Below are positions 2,028-16,211 of a stretch of DNA of 64,000 nt, one piece after another. The stretch's first letter is position 1. Every line of letters begins with the position of its first letter. The stretch covers positions 1,689,225 to 1,753,224 of the forward strand of contig NZ_CP061368.1 in assembly GCF_014725735.1 (NCBI RefSeq), in the 5' to 3' direction. The notes beneath the pieces are model-generated. The model was not told where the DNA came from. It ran no database searches and saw only the letters and a program-made list of their open reading frames with translations. The translations under genes were made by a program, and so were the position numbers. The DNA comes from Wenzhouxiangella sp. AB-CW3. GTDB lineage: Bacteria > Pseudomonadota > Gammaproteobacteria > Xanthomonadales > Wenzhouxiangellaceae.

Positions 2028-2159
2028 TGTTAATGGCCAACTAAACTGACCCACTATTGGCCAACAATTTTGACCCACCCCGGGTGGCTTTGGCCACAAA
2101 ACACTGTAGCGTCCCGTGCCAGACAAATAAGCCGGGACAGATCATTGAAGGAGTGGGTT

Positions 2160-3686
2160 GTGATTCACAAAATCAAAGCATTACACGATCAGGGGCGGGG
2201 CCTATCGGTCCGGGCGATCAGCCGGGAACTGGGCATTGCCCGTAACACGGTTCGCAAGTACCTGAGACTGAACGAGATGGCGATCAGCCAAGCCCAGGAG
2301 GATCCCTCGCGTAGCAAGCGTCTGGACGAGTATCGAGATTTCCTCATCCATCAGCTCAAGACGTATCCCCGGCTGAGCGCCATCAAGCTGGCTCGGCGAC
2401 TTCGTGAGAAAGTGGGCGAGTTGCCAGCCTCTGAGCGTAGCCTGCGCCGCTACGTGCGAGCGCTCAAGGAGCAAATCGCCAACGGCCAGACTCGTTATTA
2501 CGAGCCGGTGGTTGACGCCGTACCCGGCGTTCAGTGCCAGGTTGACCCCGGCGAGCTGCGCGGAGTGATGATCGCAGGGGTGGAGCGGGTGGTCTACTTC
2601 GTGGTCTTCGTTCTGGCCTGTTCACGGCTGATGTACGTGGGGGTGCGATTCCAGCCTCTGGACACCGAGGCGTTCATCCAGCTTCACGACGAAGCCTTCC
2701 GCTACTTTGGTGGTGTGCCTGAGGAGTGTGTATACGATCAGACCAAGCTCGTGGTGATCCACGAGCGGTACCGAGAGCTGACGCTCAATCAACGCTTTCA
2801 CCAGTACGCCACGACTGCCGGTTACCGGATCCATGCCTGCGAGGGCTATGATCCCGAGAGCAAGGGCAAGGTGGAGGCCGGGGTCAAGTACGTCAAGCAG
2901 GACGCCCTTTACGGGGAGTGCTTCGAGAGCGAGACGGCGCTGTGCCAGCACCTGCAAGGCTGGTTGGAGGCCGTGGCCAATGTTCGCAAGCACGGCGCCA
3001 CCGGTCGCCAGCCGCGGGCCCACTTCGAGGCCGACGAGCGCGCACACCTGCGTCCCTACATTGTGGCGCAAAGCCTGCTTCAGGCTCGCCCTGACCACGA
3101 GACCCGCCGGGCCGACAAAACCGGGCTGATCTCGTGGAAAGCCAACCAGTACTCAGTGCCCCTGCGCTGGCAGCGGGCCCAGGTGGGTGTCTGTGAACAG
3201 GAGGGTCACCTGCATATCCACGACCTGGAGAGCGGCGAGCGCATTGCTGGGCATGTTCTGTGTCTGGAGAAAGGCCGCACGATCAAGAACAACCACCACT
3301 ACCGGGATCCGGCCCAGCGCATCGCGGATCTGGAAGCGGCCATCTGCCAACAGCTGCCCGACGGTCAGGGCGAGACGCTGTGCCACCTGCTCAAGGTGAC
3401 CTCGCCGAGGATCTACAAGGACCAACTGGCAGGCCTGCGTGATCTGCTCAACCGGCATGGACCCGTCGACGCCGAACTGCTGCAGACACTGACTCAGCAG
3501 CCCCGGTTGACCGCCAGCACCGTGCAACGCTACCTGGAGGCGTGGCAGCAAGCTCGAGACCGCGGGCGAGCCCCCGATACCAACACAACGCCTGATCATG
3601 AGGACCGAATGCCTGTCTCGGCCCTGCAAGCCTATGCTCAGGTTGGCCGCTCCAGTGGCCAGGAGGTGACCCATGAGTCGGCTTGA
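2160..3686 (+). CDS. istA: IS21-family transposase IstA
   Basis: IstA catalyses strand cleavage and transfer during IS21 transposition. The 508-residue protein starts with a helix-turn-helix region (GLSVRAISRELGIARNTVRK). The integrase core follows, with candidate catalytic residues in VQCQVDPGEL, ECVYDQTKL and SKGKVEAGVKYVK. I chose the GTG at 2160 because GAAGGAG lies six bases upstream; an ATG at 2070 in the same frame would add 30 unlikely residues close to the IS end. The 3' end overlaps istB by 14 bases, as is usual for the family. Confidence 0.93.
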   Translation: MIHKIKALHDQGRGLSVRAISRELGIARNTVRKYLRLNEMAISQAQEDPSRSKRLDEYRDFLIHQLKTYPRLSAIKLARRLREKVGELPASERSLRRYVRALKEQIANGQTRYYEPVVDAVPGVQCQVDPGELRGVMIAGVERVVYFVVFVLACSRLMYVGVRFQPLDTEAFIQLHDEAFRYFGGVPEECVYDQTKLVVIHERYRELTLNQRFHQYATTAGYRIHACEGYDPESKGKVEAGVKYVKQDALYGECFESETALCQHLQGWLEAVANVRKHGATGRQPRAHFEADERAHLRPYIVAQSLLQARPDHETRRADKTGLISWKANQYSVPLRWQRAQVGVCEQEGHLHIHDLESGERIAGHVLCLEKGRTIKNNHHYRDPAQRIADLEAAICQQLPDGQGETLCHLLKVTSPRIYKDQLAGLRDLLNRHGPVDAELLQTLTQQPRLTASTVQRYLEAWQQARDRGRAPDTNTTPDHEDRMPVSALQAYAQVGRSSGQEVTHESA

Positions 3687-4413
3687 ACAGACCCAGTCCC
3701 AGTACCGCAGCCTGCGCCTGAGCGCCACCGCCGGGCACCTGGGTGAGCTGCTGGCCCAAGCCGAAGCCAACGAGCTGTCCTATCTGGAGCTTGCCCGGCA
3801 GATCGCCGAGCACGAGCTGGCCGAGCGCACCCGCCGCCGCATCGACCGGCACCTGAAACAGGCACAGCTGCCGGCGCACAAGCCGCTAGAAGCGTTCGAC
3901 TACCGCCACCAGACCACCATCACCAAGCGTCAGGTCAGCGCCCTGCTGGACTTCGGCTTCATCGATGAGCGCCAAAACCTGGTGTTCATCGGTCCGCCCG
4001 GGGTGGGCAAAACGCACTTGGCCATCGGCATTGCTCTGAAGGCCATTGAAGCCGGCTACAAGGTGCTGTTCCGCACGGCACTGGCGCTGGTCGAAGACCT
4101 GGAGCTGGCCGAGATGAAAGGTGAACTGAAAAAACGGCTGAGACAGTTGGGTAAGTACGATGTGCTGGTGATCGATGAGCTGGGCTACCTGCCCATGACC
4201 CGGCAAGCCCGCTACAACCTGTTCCAGCTGATCAATAGCCTGTATGAGTACCGCTCAATCATCCTGACCACCAACAAGGACTTCAGCAACTGGGGAGCCT
4301 TCTTCCACGATGACGCCGTGGCGGTACCGATCATTGACCGCGTCATCCACCACTCACACATCTTCATGCTGGGAGGAGAGAGCTATCGCTTGAAACAGAA
4401 AACCACGAGCTAG
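3673..4413 (+). CDS. istB: IS21-family helper ATPase IstB
   Basis: IstB is the AAA+ ATPase that selects and remodels target DNA for IstA. The 246-residue protein has an N-terminal helical segment, a Walker A motif GPPGVGKTHLA and a Walker B region VLVIDELGYLPM, in the DnaC-like arrangement expected. It starts inside the end of istA, which points to coupled translation and a fixed ratio of the two proteins. The C-terminus ends about 60 bp before the right terminal repeats. No disrupting mutation is visible. Confidence 0.94.
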   Translation: MSRLEQTQSQYRSLRLSATAGHLGELLAQAEANELSYLELARQIAEHELAERTRRRIDRHLKQAQLPAHKPLEAFDYRHQTTITKRQVSALLDFGFIDERQNLVFIGPPGVGKTHLAIGIALKAIEAGYKVLFRTALALVEDLELAEMKGELKKRLRQLGKYDVLVIDELGYLPMTRQARYNLFQLINSLYEYRSIILTTNKDFSNWGAFFHDDAVAVPIIDRVIHHSHIFMLGGESYRLKQKTTS

Positions 4414-4479
4414 ACGACACACGGTGGGTCAAAATAAATGGCCAAAAGTGGGTCAAAATAGATGGCCATTGACACTTTG

Positions 4480-5009
4480 TAATCCGGGCCAAATCAAACC
4501 TGGACTTCCGGCGGGTCTATTCTGCTGCTACAGATCGGCAAGCTGGGCTGATCTGCGACCAAACTATTGCGCTCTGCGGCCAGCGTCCAAGCAAGTACTA
4601 TCCTCAACACTTGAGACGCATTCGCTTCAAGGACCCGGAAACCGGAAAGACCCTGGTATTTCTCACCAATCAGTTCCAACTCCCGGCTCTTACGATCTGC
4701 GCGTTGTACAAAAGCCGGTGGCAGGTCGAGCTGTTCTTCAAGTGGATCAAGCAAAATCTCCGTATCAAGTGCTTCTTCGGCCGATCGGAGAACGCAGTCA
4801 AGACACAAATTTGGATTGCTGTGTCGACCTATGTGCTGATCGCCATCATCAAAAAGCGTTTGGACCTCGATATTTCGCTGCACGCAATGCTACAGATTAT
4901 CTCCATAACTGTATTTGAAAAAACACAGTTGAAACAGGCGGTTACGATCGACCGAAGCGATCTGGATCAGATCAAAGACGGTAACCAATTGAATCTATTC
5001 GGCTTTTAA
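4480..5009 (+). pseudogene. IS4-family transposase, 3' part (disrupted)
   Basis: This is the continuation of the transposase that begins at 1388. Reading from the base after the CTTTG duplication gives VIRAKSNLDFRRVYSA and later YKSRWQVELFFKWIKQ, which carries the third catalytic residue (Glu) in the YREK-like signature of the family. The frame ends at 5009, thirteen bases before the right end of the IS. A stand-alone product from an internal ATG near 4611 would lack two catalytic residues and is not expected to work. Confidence 0.87.
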
Positions 5010-5149: not shown

Positions 5150-7393
5150 TTACTGCCAGCGATGGATCAGCGATAGCATCAGGACGTTGACGCGGTCGTT
5201 GTAGCTGGTCTCTCCGGGCAGGATGATGTCGGCGAGCTGGTTGGGGCCGACGTCGTCCAGGGCCCAGTCGGCGCTCTGGTAGCGTTCGAACCACCAGCGA
5301 GCTCGCAGCGACAGTTGTTCGTTGATTTGGTAACGCGCGGCCAGGTTGAGCGTGTGGCGGCGGCTGGTGAGGTCGGGCAGGGGCTCGGTGTCCAGGGCCG
5401 GGCCGGATTGCACGTCGATGCCGGCGCGGGCGTCGGCGTGGACGTAGTCGGCGCGCAGTTCCAGGCGTTCGTTCATCAGCAGGCGGCTCATACCCAGTCC
5501 CAGGGTGTCGACGCGGTCGCGGTGGCGGGCCTGCCACCAGCGGTCGGGGCTGGCCAGGTCGTCGGCACGAAAGCCGCCGCCGCGGAAGCTGAAGCCGTCC
5601 TGGTCGGAGCGGATGCGCTCATGGGTAATGAAGGCATGGGCTGACCAGTGCCGGGACGGCGAGTAACTGACATCGGCGGCGAACAGGTCGTTGCCGGCCT
5701 CGACCAGGCCGATTTCGGAACGGTGGAAATCATCCTTGCTGGTGCCGCCTTGCAGGGTGATGGACCAGTCGTCATTGGGGGTGATGGCGGCGTTGACGTT
5801 CACGCCCTGGCGACGGCGGTCGGCGAGGTGATACAGGCGCAGGGCGGGCAGTTCGCCCCAGCCACCGGGGACGGTGTCGACATAGGCTTCGGAATGCCCC
5901 GCCCTGAATCCCACTGCGCCGTCATAGGTGCTGCCGCTGCGATCGGCCCATTCCAGGTTGATGCCGGCTGTCAGTCTTTGGCCGAAGGCGTGTCTGAAGC
6001 CCAGTTCAAGGCGGTCTTCGTCGGTGCGTTCGCGCGCGGTGAAGCTGCGGTCGATGCGGCGATGTTCGGCGACACCTTGCAGGCGGGTGGATTGGGCCAG
6101 TCGCCAGTTGCCGGCCAGCCTGAGGCGCTGGTCGCGGTAGTCGTAGGGCAGGTTGTAGCGCCGCCGCGATGAGGTCTCGCCGGCGTCCTGGAGCTGGCTG
6201 TCGGAGCCGATGTAGACGAATTCGCCCATGGGGGTGCGGTTGTCGCGGTCGTCGAGACGGTAGCTGGCCGTCCAGTTGAAGCGCTGGTTTGGTCTGCCGG
6301 CCAGGCGCAGGTTGATGGCCGTGGTGTCGATGCGTCCGTCCAGCGAGGCGCGGGGCAGTCCCTGCACGATGCTTTCGATCAGCGCCGGGTTGATGGTGTA
6401 GTTGAGGAAATCGTCATCCTGGCGCATCTGCCCAAAGGCTGCTTCGCCACTGAACGTGAGACGGGGCGAGAAGAGGTGACTGCCGCCGATGCCGATCTGG
6501 TGAAAGGTGTTGTCCGGCGGCAGGGCCATCTGGCCGGCACCGTCGGGATAGCCGGCCGACGGGTGCCAGCCGCCGATGGCGGCAAAGGGGTTGGCAAAGA
6601 TCAGGTTCGGCTGATTGTTGTCGAACAGCGAGGCGTGATAGCGCACGCGAAATTGACGCTGGCGGTCGGCATAGTTCAGGGCCAGATCGACTTCGCGGGT
6701 CCGGTAGTCGGTGGGGACGGGCAGGAAGGCCGCGCGTGGTGTGCCGCCGGTGGGTCCGAACATGGCGGCCATGGCGCGATGGCCGTCGCGGTCTTCCTGG
6801 CGAAAGTCGGTGCTGATCTGCCAGCGTTCGGCGAAACGGGCATCGCCACCGGCGGCCACGCTGCGGCGGTCGCTGCTGACGTCGAACTCACCGAGTGAAG
6901 GCAGCAGAACGTTCATTCCAGCGGTGGATGTGGCGGCTACCCAGTCGGCCGGCAGGTTTCGTTGGCCTTGTGCCGGCTCGCGGTAGACGGTGACGGCATC
7001 ATCAATGAAGCGTGCGCTGCGCTCGTCATACTCGGCATAGACGCCGAAGGCGCCATGCTGGCGATAGTCCAGGCGCACCGTGCGCACATCCAGGCCGAGG
7101 TCTTCGGCGCGCAGGCGGATGGTGACCGGCCGGTCGCTGTCGAATTCGGCGGCCTGTATCCAGTCCAGGCCCAGCACGGCGAAGAATCCATCATCTCCCA
7201 GTCCGCTGAAACGTCCCAGCCGGGTTCCGGAATCGCTGACATGGCCCAGGCCGACTTCGACCGAGCTGTAGCGGGCAATGAAAGGCGAGAGTTCTTCGAC
7301 GGTGACTTGCTCGGCGGCCAGTGACGGGGTCAGCAGTGCGAGCGGAAGGCTGGCCGGGAGAAGAGTGGAGAGCTGCAGGTATCGCCGTTTCAT
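5150..7393 (-). CDS. mtrB: MtrB/PioB-family outer-membrane barrel of a decaheme conduit
   Basis: In this family a large beta-barrel (26 strands in known structures) sheathes a decaheme cytochrome so electrons can cross the outer membrane. The 747-residue protein has a signal peptide ending near SLAAEQ. Long alternating barrel segments follow throughout, for example YSSVEVGLGHVSD, LRLAGRPNQRFNWTASYRLD and the closing LMLSLIHRWQ. Length and layout match MtrB/PioB/DmsF. It starts 11 bases after the decaheme cytochrome gene, with AGGAG before its ATG, so the two are co-transcribed. No outer-surface MtrC/OmcA-type multiheme gene is next to it. Known partners work either in metal reduction or in iron oxidation, and the sequence does not say which way electrons flow here. 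Confidence 0.88.
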   Translation of the reverse strand: MKRRYLQLSTLLPASLPLALLTPSLAAEQVTVEELSPFIARYSSVEVGLGHVSDSGTRLGRFSGLGDDGFFAVLGLDWIQAAEFDSDRPVTIRLRAEDLGLDVRTVRLDYRQHGAFGVYAEYDERSARFIDDAVTVYREPAQGQRNLPADWVAATSTAGMNVLLPSLGEFDVSSDRRSVAAGGDARFAERWQISTDFRQEDRDGHRAMAAMFGPTGGTPRAAFLPVPTDYRTREVDLALNYADRQRQFRVRYHASLFDNNQPNLIFANPFAAIGGWHPSAGYPDGAGQMALPPDNTFHQIGIGGSHLFSPRLTFSGEAAFGQMRQDDDFLNYTINPALIESIVQGLPRASLDGRIDTTAINLRLAGRPNQRFNWTASYRLDDRDNRTPMGEFVYIGSDSQLQDAGETSSRRRYNLPYDYRDQRLRLAGNWRLAQSTRLQGVAEHRRIDRSFTARERTDEDRLELGFRHAFGQRLTAGINLEWADRSGSTYDGAVGFRAGHSEAYVDTVPGGWGELPALRLYHLADRRRQGVNVNAAITPNDDWSITLQGGTSKDDFHRSEIGLVEAGNDLFAADVSYSPSRHWSAHAFITHERIRSDQDGFSFRGGGFRADDLASPDRWWQARHRDRVDTLGLGMSRLLMNERLELRADYVHADARAGIDVQSGPALDTEPLPDLTSRRHTLNLAARYQINEQLSLRARWWFERYQSADWALDDVGPNQLADIILPGETSYNDRVNVLMLSLIHRWQ

Positions 7394-7404
7394 GTTGTGT
7401 GCTC

Positions 7405-8337
7405 CTAGCGGGTCTGTCCTACCCCGGAGGGGTGGTTGGAGCCGTGGACCTGTACGTGGCAGCTCATGCAGTCGCGACCGATCAGTGATCGTGATCCGGA
7501 AGGAATCTCGTCACTGGGCAGGCCGGTGCCGCTCAGCGCCGCGGACGGGTGGAACTGGCCCATGTGGCACTGCTGACACAAAAACGGTGTTCGCTGCACG
7601 AGCAGGTCGCGGTGTACCGAGCCGTGGGGCTGGTGACATTGGGTACAGTCTTCGCGCACCGGCTGATGCTCCCACAGGAAAGGTCCGCGCTTTTCGGCGT
7701 GGCAGCTGTAGCAGTTTTCGTTGACTGTCATGGTCTTGAGGTCGGAGGGTCCGCTGCCGCCATGCGGGTTATGACAGTCGGTGCAGGTGACCTGGCCTTC
7801 GCGCACCGGATGGGCGAAGGCGCGATGCATTTCTGCATGCTGCTCGGTGTGGCAACTGGTGCAGTTCTTGATCTGACCGCGATGATCCATGGCCGGGTCG
7901 GAGCGGGTGTGGATGGTGTGGCAGTCCACGCAGGCCATGTCCTTGAAGTCGTGATCGCTGCCATGCCAGTGCATCATGTCGGCGCCGGCATGGCAGTTCA
8001 TGCAGGTCTTGTTGAGGGTCTCGGTGTCGGAGCGGTGCGGGCCGCGAAAGGCAATCTCGGCCGGCTCACCGCCGGCTGGTGCGGGCAGGCGCGAGTGATC
8101 GATGCTCTCGCCGTGACAGGCCGCGCAGCCATCCTTGGCGAATCGGGTATGCGGGTCGGCCAGTACGGCGTGTGGTGAGGCGAAGATTTCGAGGACTGGA
8201 TGGTCGTCGCCGCCATCGTGGCAGCGCAGGCAGTTGGCGACATGCCCGGGGACGTCGATGTAGATGTCTTCGGCCGGAGTGTTTATGCCGACGGTCAGTG
8301 CGCCGAGTGCCATCAGAACCGTGAGTGTCTTGCGCAT
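7405..8337 (-). CDS. dmsE: Periplasmic decaheme c-type cytochrome, MtrA/DmsE family
   Basis: The protein has a signal peptide (MRKTLTVLMALGALTVG) and ten CxxCH heme-binding motifs: CLRCH, CAACH, CMNCH, CVDCH, CTSCH, CTDCH, CYSCH, CTQCH, CQQCH and CMSCH. Ten hemes in about 310 residues is the MtrA/DmsE/PioA design, a wire that carries electrons from the periplasm into the MtrB barrel encoded just downstream. I start at ATG 8337; a TTG at 8358 would add seven residues before the signal peptide. About 190 bp separate it from the cytochrome b5 gene upstream, so it may also have its own promoter. Confidence 0.92.
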   Translation of the reverse strand: MRKTLTVLMALGALTVGINTPAEDIYIDVPGHVANCLRCHDGGDDHPVLEIFASPHAVLADPHTRFAKDGCAACHGESIDHSRLPAPAGGEPAEIAFRGPHRSDTETLNKTCMNCHAGADMMHWHGSDHDFKDMACVDCHTIHTRSDPAMDHRGQIKNCTSCHTEQHAEMHRAFAHPVREGQVTCTDCHNPHGGSGPSDLKTMTVNENCYSCHAEKRGPFLWEHQPVREDCTQCHQPHGSVHRDLLVQRTPFLCQQCHMGQFHPSAALSGTGLPSDEIPSGSRSLIGRDCMSCHVQVHGSNHPSGVGQTR

Positions 8338-8529
8338 GGTCGTTTTACCTTTGATCAATCATCCCTGGCCCGTGGGCCGGGGTTGCATCCCCGGCGTGAC
8401 GAGGTTTTTGGTGCCGTTTGCCGTGCAGATGGTTTGCGTGGGAGGTCCCGGATATCGGCGTTCGTCGCTTCCGGGACGACGGCTTTGGGGCGTTGGCCGA
8501 TGGATGAGTTGCGGCGCAGGCATGGCCGA

Positions 8530-8892
8530 CTAGTCCTCTGCTACCGTTCCGATCAGGTAGTCGTCGATCATCGCCCAGGCAGCCGCCGAGTGATCGCGGC
8601 CATAACCCTTGGTGCGCATTGCGTCGGTGGATTCCTTGCCGCACCATCGCTCCATGACCGATGGCGGGGTGGGGTGGTCGGGAATGTAGTCGGTAAAGTC
8701 GTAGACCTTGCCTTTGATGACTTTCCAGCAACTGTCGAGAGAATCATGCTGTTCGATCTCTTCCCAGGTGTAGGCGGGTAACTCATCGCCGTTGCTCTTG
8801 TCGGCGTCCTTCTTGTCCATGGCATGCAGGGCAGCAACGGTCAGCACCGATGCCCAGAAGGCGACGAACAGGGTATAGGTCAGCTTTTTCAT
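8530..8892 (-). CDS. Exported cytochrome b5-like heme protein
   Basis: The 120-residue protein has an N-terminal hydrophobic segment (LFVAFWASVLTVAALHA), a signal peptide or membrane anchor, then a cytochrome b5 fold: AYTWEEIEQH, CWKVIKGKVYDFTDYIPDHP and a second histidine in GYGRDHS. The usual HPGG heme-ligand loop reads HPTPP here, but both candidate heme histidines are present. Its ATG overlaps the stop of the ferric-reductase-like gene by four bases, indicating tight coupling. The context suggests a periplasmic one-electron shuttle between that reductase and the decaheme cytochrome; this is inference. Confidence 0.82.
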   Translation of the reverse strand: MKKLTYTLFVAFWASVLTVAALHAMDKKDADKSNGDELPAYTWEEIEQHDSLDSCWKVIKGKVYDFTDYIPDHPTPPSVMERWCGKESTDAMRTKGYGRDHSAAAWAMIDDYLIGTVAED

Positions 8893-10199
8893 AGCAGTTC
8901 AAACTCCTCGGTATGAATTCTTGCCAGCGGCACGCCGGCAGCTCGGGCATGGCGCTGGATAAGGTGATTGAGCGGTGTCGGGCCGCAAATGTAGATCTCG
9001 CGAGTAGCAAGGTCGGGGCAGGCTGATTCAAGGTATTGCTGGCTGATCGGCCCTTGCTGGTAGAAGTAGTGCATGTGCAGGTGAAAGTCGGGCAGGGATT
9101 CGGCCAGCTCGGTCAGTTCTTCCAGGAAGATGGCGCGTGCCTCGTCCTGAACGCAGAACACCAGGTGGGCGTTGGCTGGTTCCTCCAGGGCCTTGAGGTG
9201 GCGCATACGGGCCAGGAACGGGGTGATGCCGATGCCGCCGGCGACCCAAAACTCCGGGATCTTGATTCGATCCGGACTCTTGAAGAATCGGCCGTAGGGG
9301 CCCTCGACAGTCACCTTCGAGCCGACCCGGATGTCCTGGATGGCGCGACTGGCGTCGCCCAGATCCTTGATGGCGATGCGCAGCTGTTTCTCGCGGGGCG
9401 AGGAGGACAGCGTGTAGGGGTGCTCCTCGGCGTAGCCGTCGTCGAGCTCCCGATCGAAAGGCGCGAGGTAGACGAAGTTGCCCGCCTGGTACTCCAGTCT
9501 GCGCTTGCCTGGCTCGAGCGTCAGTTCGACCACATTGTTGGCCGGCTTGTCGAGCGCGCTGACCCGATAGCTCAGGCGACCGATGCGGCGCGAGAACACG
9601 AAGCGCCAGACCACGGCACCGACCGCCAGTGCGGCAAATGCCGACCAGATGGCCACATCGGCCCATCCGGGCATGGTGCGCGAGAAGTAGAAAGTATGAA
9701 CCAGCGCCAGGATCACGGCAGGCCCGGCCAGGCGGTGGACGAGCTTCCAGCGTTCGTAGTCGGGCCGGCCAAAAAAGTGAAAGCTCGGGGCCAGAAAGAC
9801 CATCATCAGGACCAGCGCCAGCCAGCCCGACCAGGTGGCGATGTCCGACAGCGGCGGAAACAGGGTCTGGAACGCGGTGCCGGTGCCATGGGCGGCCGCC
9901 GAAAAGGCCAGCAGAATGGGATGGAGCAGTAGCAGGATCAGCGACCAGGCGCCAAGCAGGTGATGGGTATGCCACAGCCGGGTCAGCCCGCCAAAGGGCT
10001 GATCGAAGCCCGGGACCCTGGCGCTGAGCGCGGCGGCCAGCAGCAAGAGCGCCAGCCCGGCAACACCGGTCAGCCTGCCCAGGGCATTCAGGACGGCGGC
10101 TGGCGAGGCCAGGTCGGACAGCCCGAACCCCATCAGCACGAACAGCACCGGCACAAGCACCAGTAGCCAGACTGTCGTCCTTGCTGTTCGAGCAGTCAT
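8889..10199 (-). CDS. Ferric-reductase-like membrane flavoprotein (FAD/NAD(P)H, heme b)
   Basis: The N-terminal half has about six membrane segments with paired histidines (WHTHHLLG, LLLLHPILL, LVHRLAG, LVHTFYF), as in the heme-b-binding ferric reductase/NADPH oxidase fold. The C-terminal half is a ferredoxin-reductase module with a flavin motif EEHPYTLSSSP, a nucleotide-binding motif VAGGIGITPF and a terminal EEFEL. The expected job is to take electrons from cytoplasmic NAD(P)H through FAD and two hemes b to the periplasmic face. It is the first gene of the minus-strand set ending in the decaheme conduit. GTG at 10202 is an alternative start. An FNR-like box lies about 70 bp upstream. Confidence 0.85.
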   Translation of the reverse strand: MTARTARTTVWLLVLVPVLFVLMGFGLSDLASPAAVLNALGRLTGVAGLALLLLAAALSARVPGFDQPFGGLTRLWHTHHLLGAWSLILLLLHPILLAFSAAAHGTGTAFQTLFPPLSDIATWSGWLALVLMMVFLAPSFHFFGRPDYERWKLVHRLAGPAVILALVHTFYFSRTMPGWADVAIWSAFAALAVGAVVWRFVFSRRIGRLSYRVSALDKPANNVVELTLEPGKRRLEYQAGNFVYLAPFDRELDDGYAEEHPYTLSSSPREKQLRIAIKDLGDASRAIQDIRVGSKVTVEGPYGRFFKSPDRIKIPEFWVAGGIGITPFLARMRHLKALEEPANAHLVFCVQDEARAIFLEELTELAESLPDFHLHMHYFYQQGPISQQYLESACPDLATREIYICGPTPLNHLIQRHARAAGVPLARIHTEEFELL

Positions 10200-10266
10200 C
10201 ACGCGGCCGAGTCCCTCAGGTTGAATTCAAGCGGTCTCTAATCTAGCAAAATCCGCATTCGATTGC

Positions 10267-15007: not shown

Positions 15008-16132
15008 TCAGGGGATTACCCTCAAAACCTCCCCCTTTTTCTCATCCGTCAGTACGTAAAGCGCTCCGTCCGGGCCGACCTGCACGTCGCGCAGGCGGCG
15101 GTCTAGGTGGTCTAGCAGGATCTCGACTTCCTCGGCTGTTTCGCCGTCGATGCGTACGCGGTGGATGGCGCGGCTGACCAGGCCGGCGATCAGCAGGTCG
15201 CCTTCCCATTCGGGAAACATTTCGCCGCGGTACTGGCTCATGCCGGCCGGGGCGATGGCCGGTGTCCAGACGATCATTGGATCGACCATGTCCGGTCGTG
15301 TCTTCCATGGGCTGATGCGAGCGCCGGAGTAGTCGATGCCGTGGGTGGCCAGCGGCCAGCCGTAGTTCTTGCCCGGCTTGATCAGGTTGAGTTCGTCGCC
15401 GCCGCTCGGTCCGTGTTCGTGTGACCAGATCAGGCCGGTTTCGACGTCGAAGACCAGGCCTTGCGGGTTGCGGTGGCCATAGCTGAATATTTCGCCCCAG
15501 GCCTCCTCGTTCTGCTGCCGGCAGTGTTTTCCGACAAAGGGGTTGTCGGACGGGACGCGGCCATCGTCATGCACCCGCACGATCGTGCCGATATGGTTGT
15601 CCAGTTTCTGGGCCTGTTCGCGGTGGTCGAAGCCGTCACCGACGGAAATCAGCAGGCTGTGATCATCCAGGAAGGTCATGCGTCCGCCGTAATGAACAGT
15701 TTGTGTTCGCCAGGGGGCGGCGTCGAAGATGATCTGGTTGTCGACCCAGTGCTTGCCGTCGATGCGCCCTCTCACAACCCGGGTGGTGCCGGCGCTGCCA
15801 TCGCCTTGTGGTTCAGTGAATGCCAGACTCAGATAGATCCAGCCGTTGCGCTCGAAATTCGGATGCAGCTTGACTTCCATCAGGCCGCCCTGGTCGGCCA
15901 CCCGGGCTTCGGGCACGCCCGAGATGGCGTTGTCCAGTTGCTGTCCGTCTGCATCGATCACGCGCAGGCGGCCGGCGCGTTCGGTGACCAGCATGCGCCC
16001 GTCGGGTAGAAAGGCAATGGACCACGGGTGCTCCAGGCCACTGGCTATCGATTCGATCTGAAGGTCGTCGGCGGTGGACGCGGCCGACAGCAGGAAGAAG
16101 AGAAGGGCAAGGGAAAGACGTGGCAATTTCAT
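15008..16132 (-). CDS. PQQ-dependent aldose sugar dehydrogenase-like protein
   Basis: The 374-residue protein has a signal peptide (LSLALLFFLLSAASTADD) and the six-bladed propeller motifs of soluble quinoprotein glucose/aldose sugar dehydrogenases: GLEHPWSIAFLPDGRMLVTE, GGLMEVKLHPNF, GHRNPQGLVFD, SHEHGPSGGDELN and the closing VQVGPDGALYVLTDE. Family members oxidise aldoses in the periplasm with PQQ and pass electrons to the respiratory chain. The start at ATG 16132 puts the signal peptide at the N-terminus. No PQQ synthesis genes are in the window. Its 3' end is partly duplicated just downstream. Confidence 0.85.
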   Translation of the reverse strand: MKLPRLSLALLFFLLSAASTADDLQIESIASGLEHPWSIAFLPDGRMLVTERAGRLRVIDADGQQLDNAISGVPEARVADQGGLMEVKLHPNFERNGWIYLSLAFTEPQGDGSAGTTRVVRGRIDGKHWVDNQIIFDAAPWRTQTVHYGGRMTFLDDHSLLISVGDGFDHREQAQKLDNHIGTIVRVHDDGRVPSDNPFVGKHCRQQNEEAWGEIFSYGHRNPQGLVFDVETGLIWSHEHGPSGGDELNLIKPGKNYGWPLATHGIDYSGARISPWKTRPDMVDPMIVWTPAIAPAGMSQYRGEMFPEWEGDLLIAGLVSRAIHRVRIDGETAEEVEILLDHLDRRLRDVQVGPDGALYVLTDEKKGEVLRVIP

Positions 16133-16211
16133 TGGCTTGTCTGGGTCGGAATCTGCACAGGTGGCCAACATAGCAGATAATGAGGCCCGGTCTCATATCC
16201 GGGAGAAAGGC

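Follow-up and report, generated by a model that had tools for sequence, protein, structure and literature searches.

A NOX-type flavocytochrome and a cytochrome b5 encoded beside mtrAB in Wenzhouxiangella sp. AB-CW3 as a candidate quinone-independent input to an outer-membrane electron conduit

The stretch of DNA analyzed here, 64,000 nucleotides of contig NZ_CP061368.1 from Wenzhouxiangella sp. AB-CW3 and referred to as the window in the following, carries four minus-strand genes for a membrane flavocytochrome related to NADPH oxidases (NOX) and ferric reductases, a cytochrome b5, an MtrA-type decaheme cytochrome and an MtrB/PioB-type barrel. The set had been described in an earlier note made from the letters of the sequence, and position and orientation of all four genes are confirmed (Table 1). 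In the best-supported reading, which we consider rather probable, the flavocytochrome and b5 (hereafter the pair) would act with MtrAB in a quinone-independent export of electrons across both membranes, from NAD(P)H to the outside of the cell. A feeding route of its own is supported by the recurrence of the four genes in three different orders, by the repeated association of pair and mtrAB on an MtrB tree and by the absence of the CymA/NapC/NirT family (PF03264) from many carriers. What is new here is the NOX-type flavocytochrome plus b5 as the input to a conduit of an otherwise known MtrAB type.

The four genes and their products

The flavocytochrome (437 residues) unites a ferric-reductase membrane domain (PF01794), an FAD domain (PF08022) and an NAD(P)H domain (PF00175) in a single chain which, together with two pairs of histidines in membrane helices, is the architecture of the NOX/FRE family. 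These pairs, His80/His94 and His156/His169, are the ligands of a two-heme membrane domain and are invariant in 33 sequences, as are the GGxG and CGP motifs; H261-P262, G322-G325 and C406-P408 are conserved across the same number of sequences. The NADPH oxidase SpNOX from Streptococcus pneumoniae is the closest solved sequence (8qt6, E 4.9e-25) and also the best match in a fold search with the AlphaFold (AF2) model of the protein (mean pLDDT 92; TM 0.75 over the query), followed by entries for flavohemoglobin, DUOX, NOX5 and NOX2.

The gene for this protein overlaps that for cytochrome b5 by 4 bp (ATGA), just as the earlier note had described. Among solved proteins, by far the closest to the b5 gene product of 120 residues (PF00173, E 1.5e-19) is cytochrome b558 from Ectothiorhodospira vacuolata (1cxy, E 2.5e-26), and 1cxy is also the best fold match to the model (rmsd 1.2 Å). 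The axial ligands His73/His101, which together with the b5 fold are a trait of bacterial b558-type cytochromes, are invariant in 31 sequences, and so is the pair Cys55/Cys84, which aligns with cysteines of 1cxy. While the assignment as a b5 stands, the note's description of the protein as simply exported does not: an N-terminal helix, residues 2-25 in the AF2 model, is conserved in the alignment, so that the protein is probably anchored in the membrane. The positively charged start, the single helix and the invariant cysteines fit a periplasmic location, and the b5 domain is predicted to face the periplasm. Some relatives depart from this layout. C-terminal extensions of approximately 150 residues occur in L182:8995-9840, L184:2329-3132 and L187:8995-9816 (no Pfam match in L182 and L184, the two on which Pfam was run), and a b558-type b5 from Ectothiorhodospira marina (L188:8803-9285) has a signal-like start and no adjacent reductase. 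In the E. marina genome MtrB adjoins an MtrC-like gene with ten CxxCH motifs.

The decaheme cytochrome and the barrel on the same strand likewise turned out as described. MtrA scores 272 bits with TIGR03508 (cut-off 192), all ten of its CxxCH motifs are invariant in 16 sequences, and its closest solved relative is 6r2q_A (E 9.8e-72). MtrB, the gene of which starts 11 bp 3' of mtrA, scores 456 bits with PF11854 (cut-off 23) and 409 bits with TIGR03509 and is closest to 6r2q_B (E 5.7e-51); 6r2q is identified as MtrAB from Shewanella baltica in PMC10654088. A decaheme protein of the MtrA/DmsE family next to a barrel of the MtrB/PioB family is the hallmark of porin-cytochrome conduits, and the two proteins are predicted to form a conducting complex of the MtrAB/PioAB type. 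The remark that no MtrC/OmcA gene is adjacent also held and can be extended, as the OmcA/MtrC profile TIGR03507 finds no match in the whole genome, which is complete (3.84 Mb), contains one MtrB and has members of Wenzhouxiangella as its named relatives. Neither a CymA-type (PF03264) nor a further multiheme gene was found beside the locus. Among other loci, the mtrA frame of L043:6670-7722 (genome G034; also L152) is split into two parts, one with 3 and the other with 7 CxxCH motifs, and the mtrB match of L043 is covered by no single frame, which may reflect decay or an assembly error. In L181, reductase, b5 and mtrA are followed by a strongly diverged barrel of the MtrB type (L181:10305-12173; PF11854, 33 bits), and the same genome additionally has a cluster of CymA-like, MtrC-like, MtrA and MtrB genes.

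No promoter-like or terminator-like site was found on the coding strand of the gap between b5 and mtrA, and this gap is much shorter in some relatives, e.g., L152 and L148. A repeat element in the gap was considered and rejected, the suspect stretch being single-copy in the window and free of any inverted repeat that we could find. Insertion-sequence genes (an IS21-type istB and a fragment of a DDE transposase) lie directly downstream of mtrB and are preceded by a transposase-like reading frame; a divergently oriented pair of amidohydrolase genes is located upstream of the reductase gene.

Table 1. Features of the four-gene locus and its surroundings (positions in the window)
Feature	Position	Strand	Remarks
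NOX/ferric-reductase-like membrane flavocytochrome	8889..10202	-	start 10202 (GTG) or 10199 (ATG), end 8889
Membrane-anchored cytochrome b5 (probable), predicted to face the periplasm	8530..8892	-	PF00173, 1cxy-like, N-terminal helix
MtrA-type decaheme c-type cytochrome	7405..8337	-	ten CxxCH, TIGR03508, 6r2q_A
MtrB/PioB-type outer-membrane beta barrel	5150..7393	-	PF11854, TIGR03509, 6r2q_B
b5-mtrA gap, 192 bp	8338..8529	-	separates the reductase-b5 half from the mtrAB half
Weak Anr/FNR-like box ATGACATGGATCAA	10267..10280	-	~78 bp upstream of the reductase gene; doubtful here
Insertion-sequence stretch, whole	2070-5009		
Transposase-like reading frame	2070-3686		upstream of istB
IS21-type istB	3673-4413		
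DDE transposase fragment	4611-5009		
Glucose/sorbosone-dehydrogenase-like (GSDH) gene	15008-16171		

Recurrence of the pair and its linkage to mtrAB

Among 43 genomes from the host's family, MtrB was detected in 31, the reductase in 28 and b5 in 27. Reductase or b5 accompanies MtrB in 27 genomes, counting G024, where b5 alone was found at the end of a contig, and G039, where MtrB is a short fragment; four have MtrB only (G008-G011), two, both drafts, the reductase only (G020, G023) and ten neither, a co-occurrence with a Fisher p of 2.7e-5 that is not corrected for relatedness. The pair is colinear with mtrAB, and seen in full, in G000, G012, G015, G026, G028, G031, G032 and G034; it is colinear too in G022, G024 and G025, where the contig ends inside the cluster, and convergent to mtrAB in G016, G017, G035 and G036. 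A distance of 5.5 kb separates the two in G001, and in the remaining family genomes they lie apart or on other contigs.

The association extends beyond the family. In a scan with the b5 alignment against one genome per species, the best 80 of 103 loci (the family's own included) were evaluated, and 77 of these 80 have a reductase match 5' of b5 in the same orientation; the three exceptions are contig edges (L137, L196) and the E. marina locus L188. Twenty-six of the 80 carry mtrAB in the same locus. The earlier note had asked for co-occurrence of the four families in the order of the window: co-occurrence is found, yet reductase-b5-mtrA-mtrB accounts for 10 of these 26 loci, mtrA-mtrB-reductase-b5 for 11 and a convergent arrangement for 5. 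Carriers of the mtrA-mtrB-reductase-b5 order include Marinimicrobium, Lacimicrobium and Pseudomonadales or unclassified metagenome-assembled genomes. MtrAB is a frequent neighbour of the pair among the nearest relatives, and the four nearest loci from outside the family in which the pair is unlinked (L156, L159, L166 and L169; b5 48-53% identical) all belong to genomes that encode a strong MtrB at another place. Cultured carriers are Marinimicrobium alkaliphilum, M. agarilyticum, Wenzhouxiangella sediminis and Lacimicrobium sp. SS2-24, the last of which shows no PF03264 match.

Other neighbours of the pair were noted as well. In some Wenzhouxiangella the pair follows a GSDH-like gene (L117:8159-9286, from which alone the Pfam assignment stems; similar genes in L140, L142, L147, L149, L154 and L163), and the window itself carries such a gene at some distance (Table 1). 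An EB_dh homologue occurs near the pair in six loci from the Halomonas group (L178:5598-8209; also L177, L179, L183, L185 and L187) and a DUF2231 membrane protein in five, divergent in L178, the one locus on which Pfam was run for both labels. Anr-like boxes precede the reductase in Halomonas-group loci, and EB_dh/DUF2231 may possibly be a second partner system. A small protein of approximately 120 amino acids, the representative of which (L202) has no Pfam match, is encoded near the reductase in 16 of the 80 loci (L202:7339-7710 and 15 others), mostly from alpha- and betaproteobacteria.

Boxes of the Anr/FNR type were found more often than expected upstream of both gene groups. A relaxed consensus, which was picked after a strict scan had been made, places them ahead of mtrA at 13 of 42 loci, against 0.7 expected, and ahead of the reductase at 13 of 78, against 0.9 expected; the strict consensus with one mismatch gave 8 of 42 and 7 of 78 (0.1 and 0.2 expected), related loci not being independent in either count. 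This suggests use under low oxygen in some lineages, and we retain it solely as support for lineages other than that of the window.

How the conduit may be fed

A tree of MtrB sequences (80 rows, quick method) requires seven changes of the label "pair beside mtrAB", at least six of them forced by supported branches, which means that the association arose or was lost repeatedly. L043, L262 and L275 (no single frame over the barrel match) and L289 (too short) were left out, and L048 was counted as unlinked, although both contigs concerned, the one with mtrAB and the one with the pair, end near the genes. Family loci and loci from the species scan overlap in many genomes; tree and the following set of 31 genomes use each once, except that G035, G119, G134 and G183 each contribute two mtrB matches from separate places. 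This set comprises the genomes in which the pair lies beside mtrAB, among them G001 and that of L181 with its distant barrel, while G022, G025 and G027, the contigs of which end inside the cluster, are left out. PF03264 remained unmatched in 20 of the 31 genomes in a search aimed at that family, and this is the strongest point for a substitution of CymA. The 20 include the one-contig genome G015 and six of the ten genomes reported as at least 90% complete. TIGR03507 exceeds its cut-off in 4 of the 31 and stays below it in 27. MtrA was the sole match in five of ten genomes (G000, G016, G370, G457 and G465) in a search for paired CXXCH motifs, which misses NapC and NirT (G000 has both) and is thus no proof against other multiheme proteins; G015 has two more octaheme proteins. 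Finally, 2 of 21 linked loci have a CymA-like or MtrC-like gene as a neighbour, compared with 19 of 33 unlinked ones (p 5e-4, uncorrected), a count that covers the 54 of 81 loci with enough flank and uses four to five strict CxxCH motifs as the rule for CymA; the rule missed a gene in G017, the locus of which had already been counted via MtrC.

From this gene content we propose that the pair substitutes for the quinol dehydrogenase CymA. The earlier note had postulated a route distinct from CymA, and the three gene orders, the recurrence on the MtrB tree and the missing PF03264 matches bear this out, whereas replacement of CymA was not supported by a tree-aware test, which had three independent pairs to draw on and was not significant. 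Further observations also weigh against the proposal. CymA and MtrC are both lacking nearby in 14 of the 33 unlinked loci, the 20 genomes that lack a PF03264 match include several drafts (completeness 80-93% or unreported), so that single absences may be gaps, and CbcL/MtoC, NetBCD and ImcH lay outside that search. In the family, 15 mtrAB loci have no adjoining pair; CymA-like plus MtrC-like genes are present in seven of these (L031, L035, L036, L039, L040, L049, L058) and an MtrC-like gene only in L047, while seven have neither (L045, L048, L050, L051, L052, L054, L059, with short flanks in L048 and L059 and one-sided flanks in L045 and L054). The pair coexists with CymA-MtrCAB clusters in G014 and G036, and in G017 a CymA-like gene with three strict CxxCH motifs stands beside MtrC. 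In G014 pair and mtrAB are apart, each inside a long contig. Such a separation in relatives was what the earlier note would have counted against a joint route, yet the genome-wide co-occurrence persists, and together with the CymA- and MtrC-like genes that seven of the 15 loci possess on their own this weakens an obligatory linkage more than a functional tie.

Of 41 loci in which the pair and mtrAB are not neighbours, 40 genomes were checked (with L181 and without L207). A strong MtrB (E <1e-100) is present in only 12 of them, including Haliea, Kineobactrum, E. marina and two of the four Rhodopseudomonas. No MtrB above the family cut-off was detected in eight genomes of the Halomonas group and one of Thioalkalivibrio that have the pair, nor in Dechloromonas. 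In a class-wide sample of 369 genomes, MtrB was found in 28 (E up to 1e-30) and a close reductase in five (E <1e-100); both are present only in G000 and G370, and the other three close-reductase genomes lack MtrB. The occurrence of the pair without MtrB in several groups points to a module with more than one partner. The window's own genome adds to these reservations, as it encodes two NapC/NirT-family (PF03264) proteins, both distant from the locus, so that quinol could feed MtrA; one resides in a nap cluster and the other beside a nirS-like gene, labels that stem from reading the sequences and not from a profile search. The Anr-like box of the window is not conserved in three close relatives. 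Upstream of mtrA, 4 of 42 loci have a weak Fur-like site with no more than 6 mismatches in 19 positions (0.4 expected), which leaves some room for iron control. Control by Fur is nevertheless not supported, since the mtrA sites are only weak and those upstream of the reductase are barely enriched (7 of 78 at up to 7 mismatches versus 3.8 expected, i.e., within a factor of two). Lastly, MtrA is unable to span the periplasm, which is bridged by soluble cytochromes in Shewanella (PMC7096707), and the anchored b5 may not reach MtrA unaided. No gene for a soluble carrier was recognized at the locus, where profiles for MtoD and PioC were not searched.

Alternatively, the pair might be an electron exporter of general use, supplying the periplasm (for periplasmic reductases, iron or superoxide) and often residing near mtrAB, while MtrAB would obtain its electrons mainly from quinol via NapC, NirT or another cytochrome, with the pair as a side input at most. 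The genomes with the pair and without MtrB over the cut-off (Halomonas group, Thioalkalivibrio, Dechloromonas), the other neighbours (the EB_dh homologue and DUF2231 gene in Halomonas, the GSDH gene in some Wenzhouxiangella) and the presence of NapC and NirT in the window's genome all fit such an exporter. We nevertheless regard it as unlikely, though worth keeping in mind, because most linked genomes show no match to the CymA/NapC/NirT family, because pair and MtrB are found together on several branches of the MtrB tree and in three arrangements of the genes, and because the genomes of L156, L159, L166 and L169, in which the pair is unlinked, all contain a strong MtrB. It is also conceivable that MtrAB accepts both quinol and NAD(P)H input and that the pair takes over in anoxia, when the quinol pool is over-reduced. 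The vicinity of the pair to an MtrCAB cluster with a CymA-like gene in G036 and G017, the Anr-type boxes before a subset of both gene groups and the denitrification-type NapC and NirT of the window's genome would agree with such two-way use. As OmcA/MtrC is not detected in the large majority of the linked genomes and a quinol branch through the CymA family is unavailable to those without a match to it, we consider this improbable.

The earlier note had also raised a reversed route, in which MtrAB would draw electrons from external Fe(II) and b5 and flavoprotein would reduce NAD(P)+. MtrC is absent here as it is from the iron-oxidizing MtoAB and PioAB systems (PMC10654088); however, on bioenergetic grounds the transfer from Fe(II) to NAD(P)+ would be uphill, and electrons entering the cell would also have to overcome a membrane potential that is negative inside. 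Furthermore, SpNOX, which shares its architecture with the flavocytochrome, sends electrons from NADPH outward (PMC5676040), and beside the locus no other multiheme gene was found, MtoD- and PioC-like genes not having been profile-searched. Reverse flow is thus disfavored and appears very improbable. An accidental neighbourhood of two independent units, brought side by side by mobile DNA, might be read from the insertion-sequence genes downstream of mtrB and from the 192 bp between b5 and mtrA. It is largely refuted by the recurrence of the same neighbours across lineages, on the MtrB tree and in three orders, and by the co-occurrence of pair and MtrB in the family even when unlinked; we regard it as barely credible and have rejected it.

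Proposed electron path and its meaning

In the NAD(P)H-driven export that we favor, the flavocytochrome would oxidize cytoplasmic NAD(P)H and, via FAD and then its two b-type hemes, deliver the electrons to the periplasmic side of the inner membrane. There, the anchored b5 would accept them singly and hand them over to MtrA, either directly or via a soluble carrier, which may exist given that MtrA does not span the periplasm. Within the MtrB barrel, the ten hemes of MtrA would then conduct the electrons to an external acceptor. Genes, domains, ligands, recurrent linkage and the missing CymA-family matches in many carriers are observed, and orientation in the membrane, each transfer step, direction and acceptor are inferred. 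SpNOX reduces cytochrome c directly, and the authors of that study suggested that bacterial NOX proteins may serve acceptors besides oxygen (PMC5676040). In Shewanella, MtrAB lacking MtrC is still able to reduce soluble acceptors, for example Fe(III) citrate, but not solid minerals (PMC7096707). As MtrC is missing here, a soluble acceptor, e.g., chelated Fe(III), would be likelier than a solid mineral. Outward movement of electrons would be aided by an inside-negative membrane potential, rendering the route dissipative and one-way; since it would conserve no energy itself, its likely use would be the disposal of excess reductant or the reduction of external iron or other acceptors, and not classical respiration.

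The individual parts have counterparts in known systems. The decaheme MtrA and the MtrB barrel match the MtrAB chains of 6r2q and thus resemble CymA-fed MtrCAB of Shewanella, whereas a CymA gene is not adjacent here, the genome gives no OmcA/MtrC match and the input consists of a NOX-type flavocytochrome plus b5. An MtrAB-type pair without MtrC is likewise reminiscent of the iron-oxidation conduits MtoAB and PioAB; here, however, no adjacent MtoD, PioC or CymA was recognized (MtoD and PioC not being profile-searched), and the input side has NAD(P)H and FAD domains, indicating outward flow. Domain order, four heme histidines and fold are shared with SpNOX and eukaryotic NOX/FRE, which differ in that the present gene overlaps by 4 bp with that of a periplasmic-type b5 and often has mtrAB alongside. 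E. vacuolata b558 is the closest solved b5, with the same fold and an aligned Cys pair; the b5 studied here has in addition a conserved N-terminal membrane anchor and known partner genes. Ferric-reductase-like membrane proteins with an HX13H motif are encoded together with porin-cytochrome genes in the PCC3 and PCC4 clusters of neutrophilic iron oxidizers, but these are described as five-helix proteins proposed to act on quinone (PMC5566968), while the reductase here unites its membrane domain with FAD and NAD(P)H domains in one polypeptide. In MsrPQ, the NOX-like membrane protein MsrQ also hands electrons to a periplasmic protein, although this acceptor is a molybdopterin protein and not a cytochrome leading to the surface (PMC5676040).

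The Mtr-type pathways treated in the sources used here receive their electrons at the inner membrane from a quinol enzyme (CymA, NetBCD, MtoC). A survey of MtrCAB lists Wenzhouxiangella and Marinimicrobium among the carriers and reports CymA homologues for almost all MtrCAB groups; "cytochrome b5" and "ferric reductase" do not appear in its main text (PMC8805035). Marinimicrobium is also listed with pio/mto homologues in PMC10654088, in the available text of which the same two terms do not occur, and they are likewise absent, along with NADH and NADPH, from the available text of a survey of quinol-side enzymes (PMC6295460). A full-text literature search, with most subscription journals outside its coverage, returned no description of the four-gene set.

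A more far-reaching proposal is that flavocytochrome, b5, MtrA and MtrB form one physical wire that bypasses the quinone pool, connects NAD(P)H in the cytoplasm with the cell surface and is driven outward by the membrane potential. We put this forward tentatively and would rate its chances as somewhat below even. FRE and FRO are the plasma-membrane ferric reductases of yeasts and plants, and with the same reserve such a wire could be seen as the Gram-negative counterpart of plasma-membrane ferric reductases. The structure of a bacterial cytochrome b558 reportedly dates from 1999; a physical wire, if true, would provide this type of cytochrome with a partner and part of the bacterial NOX family with a physiological job. 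The route would also bear on roles of bacterial NOX-family proteins besides oxygen reduction, a possibility raised in PMC5676040. With NAD(P)H as its starting point, electron export would no longer depend on the quinone pool, could reach more negative potentials outside the cell and would serve as a redox valve. It might be of use in electrode-based fermentation. The cultured carriers make such an NAD(P)H-driven route testable.

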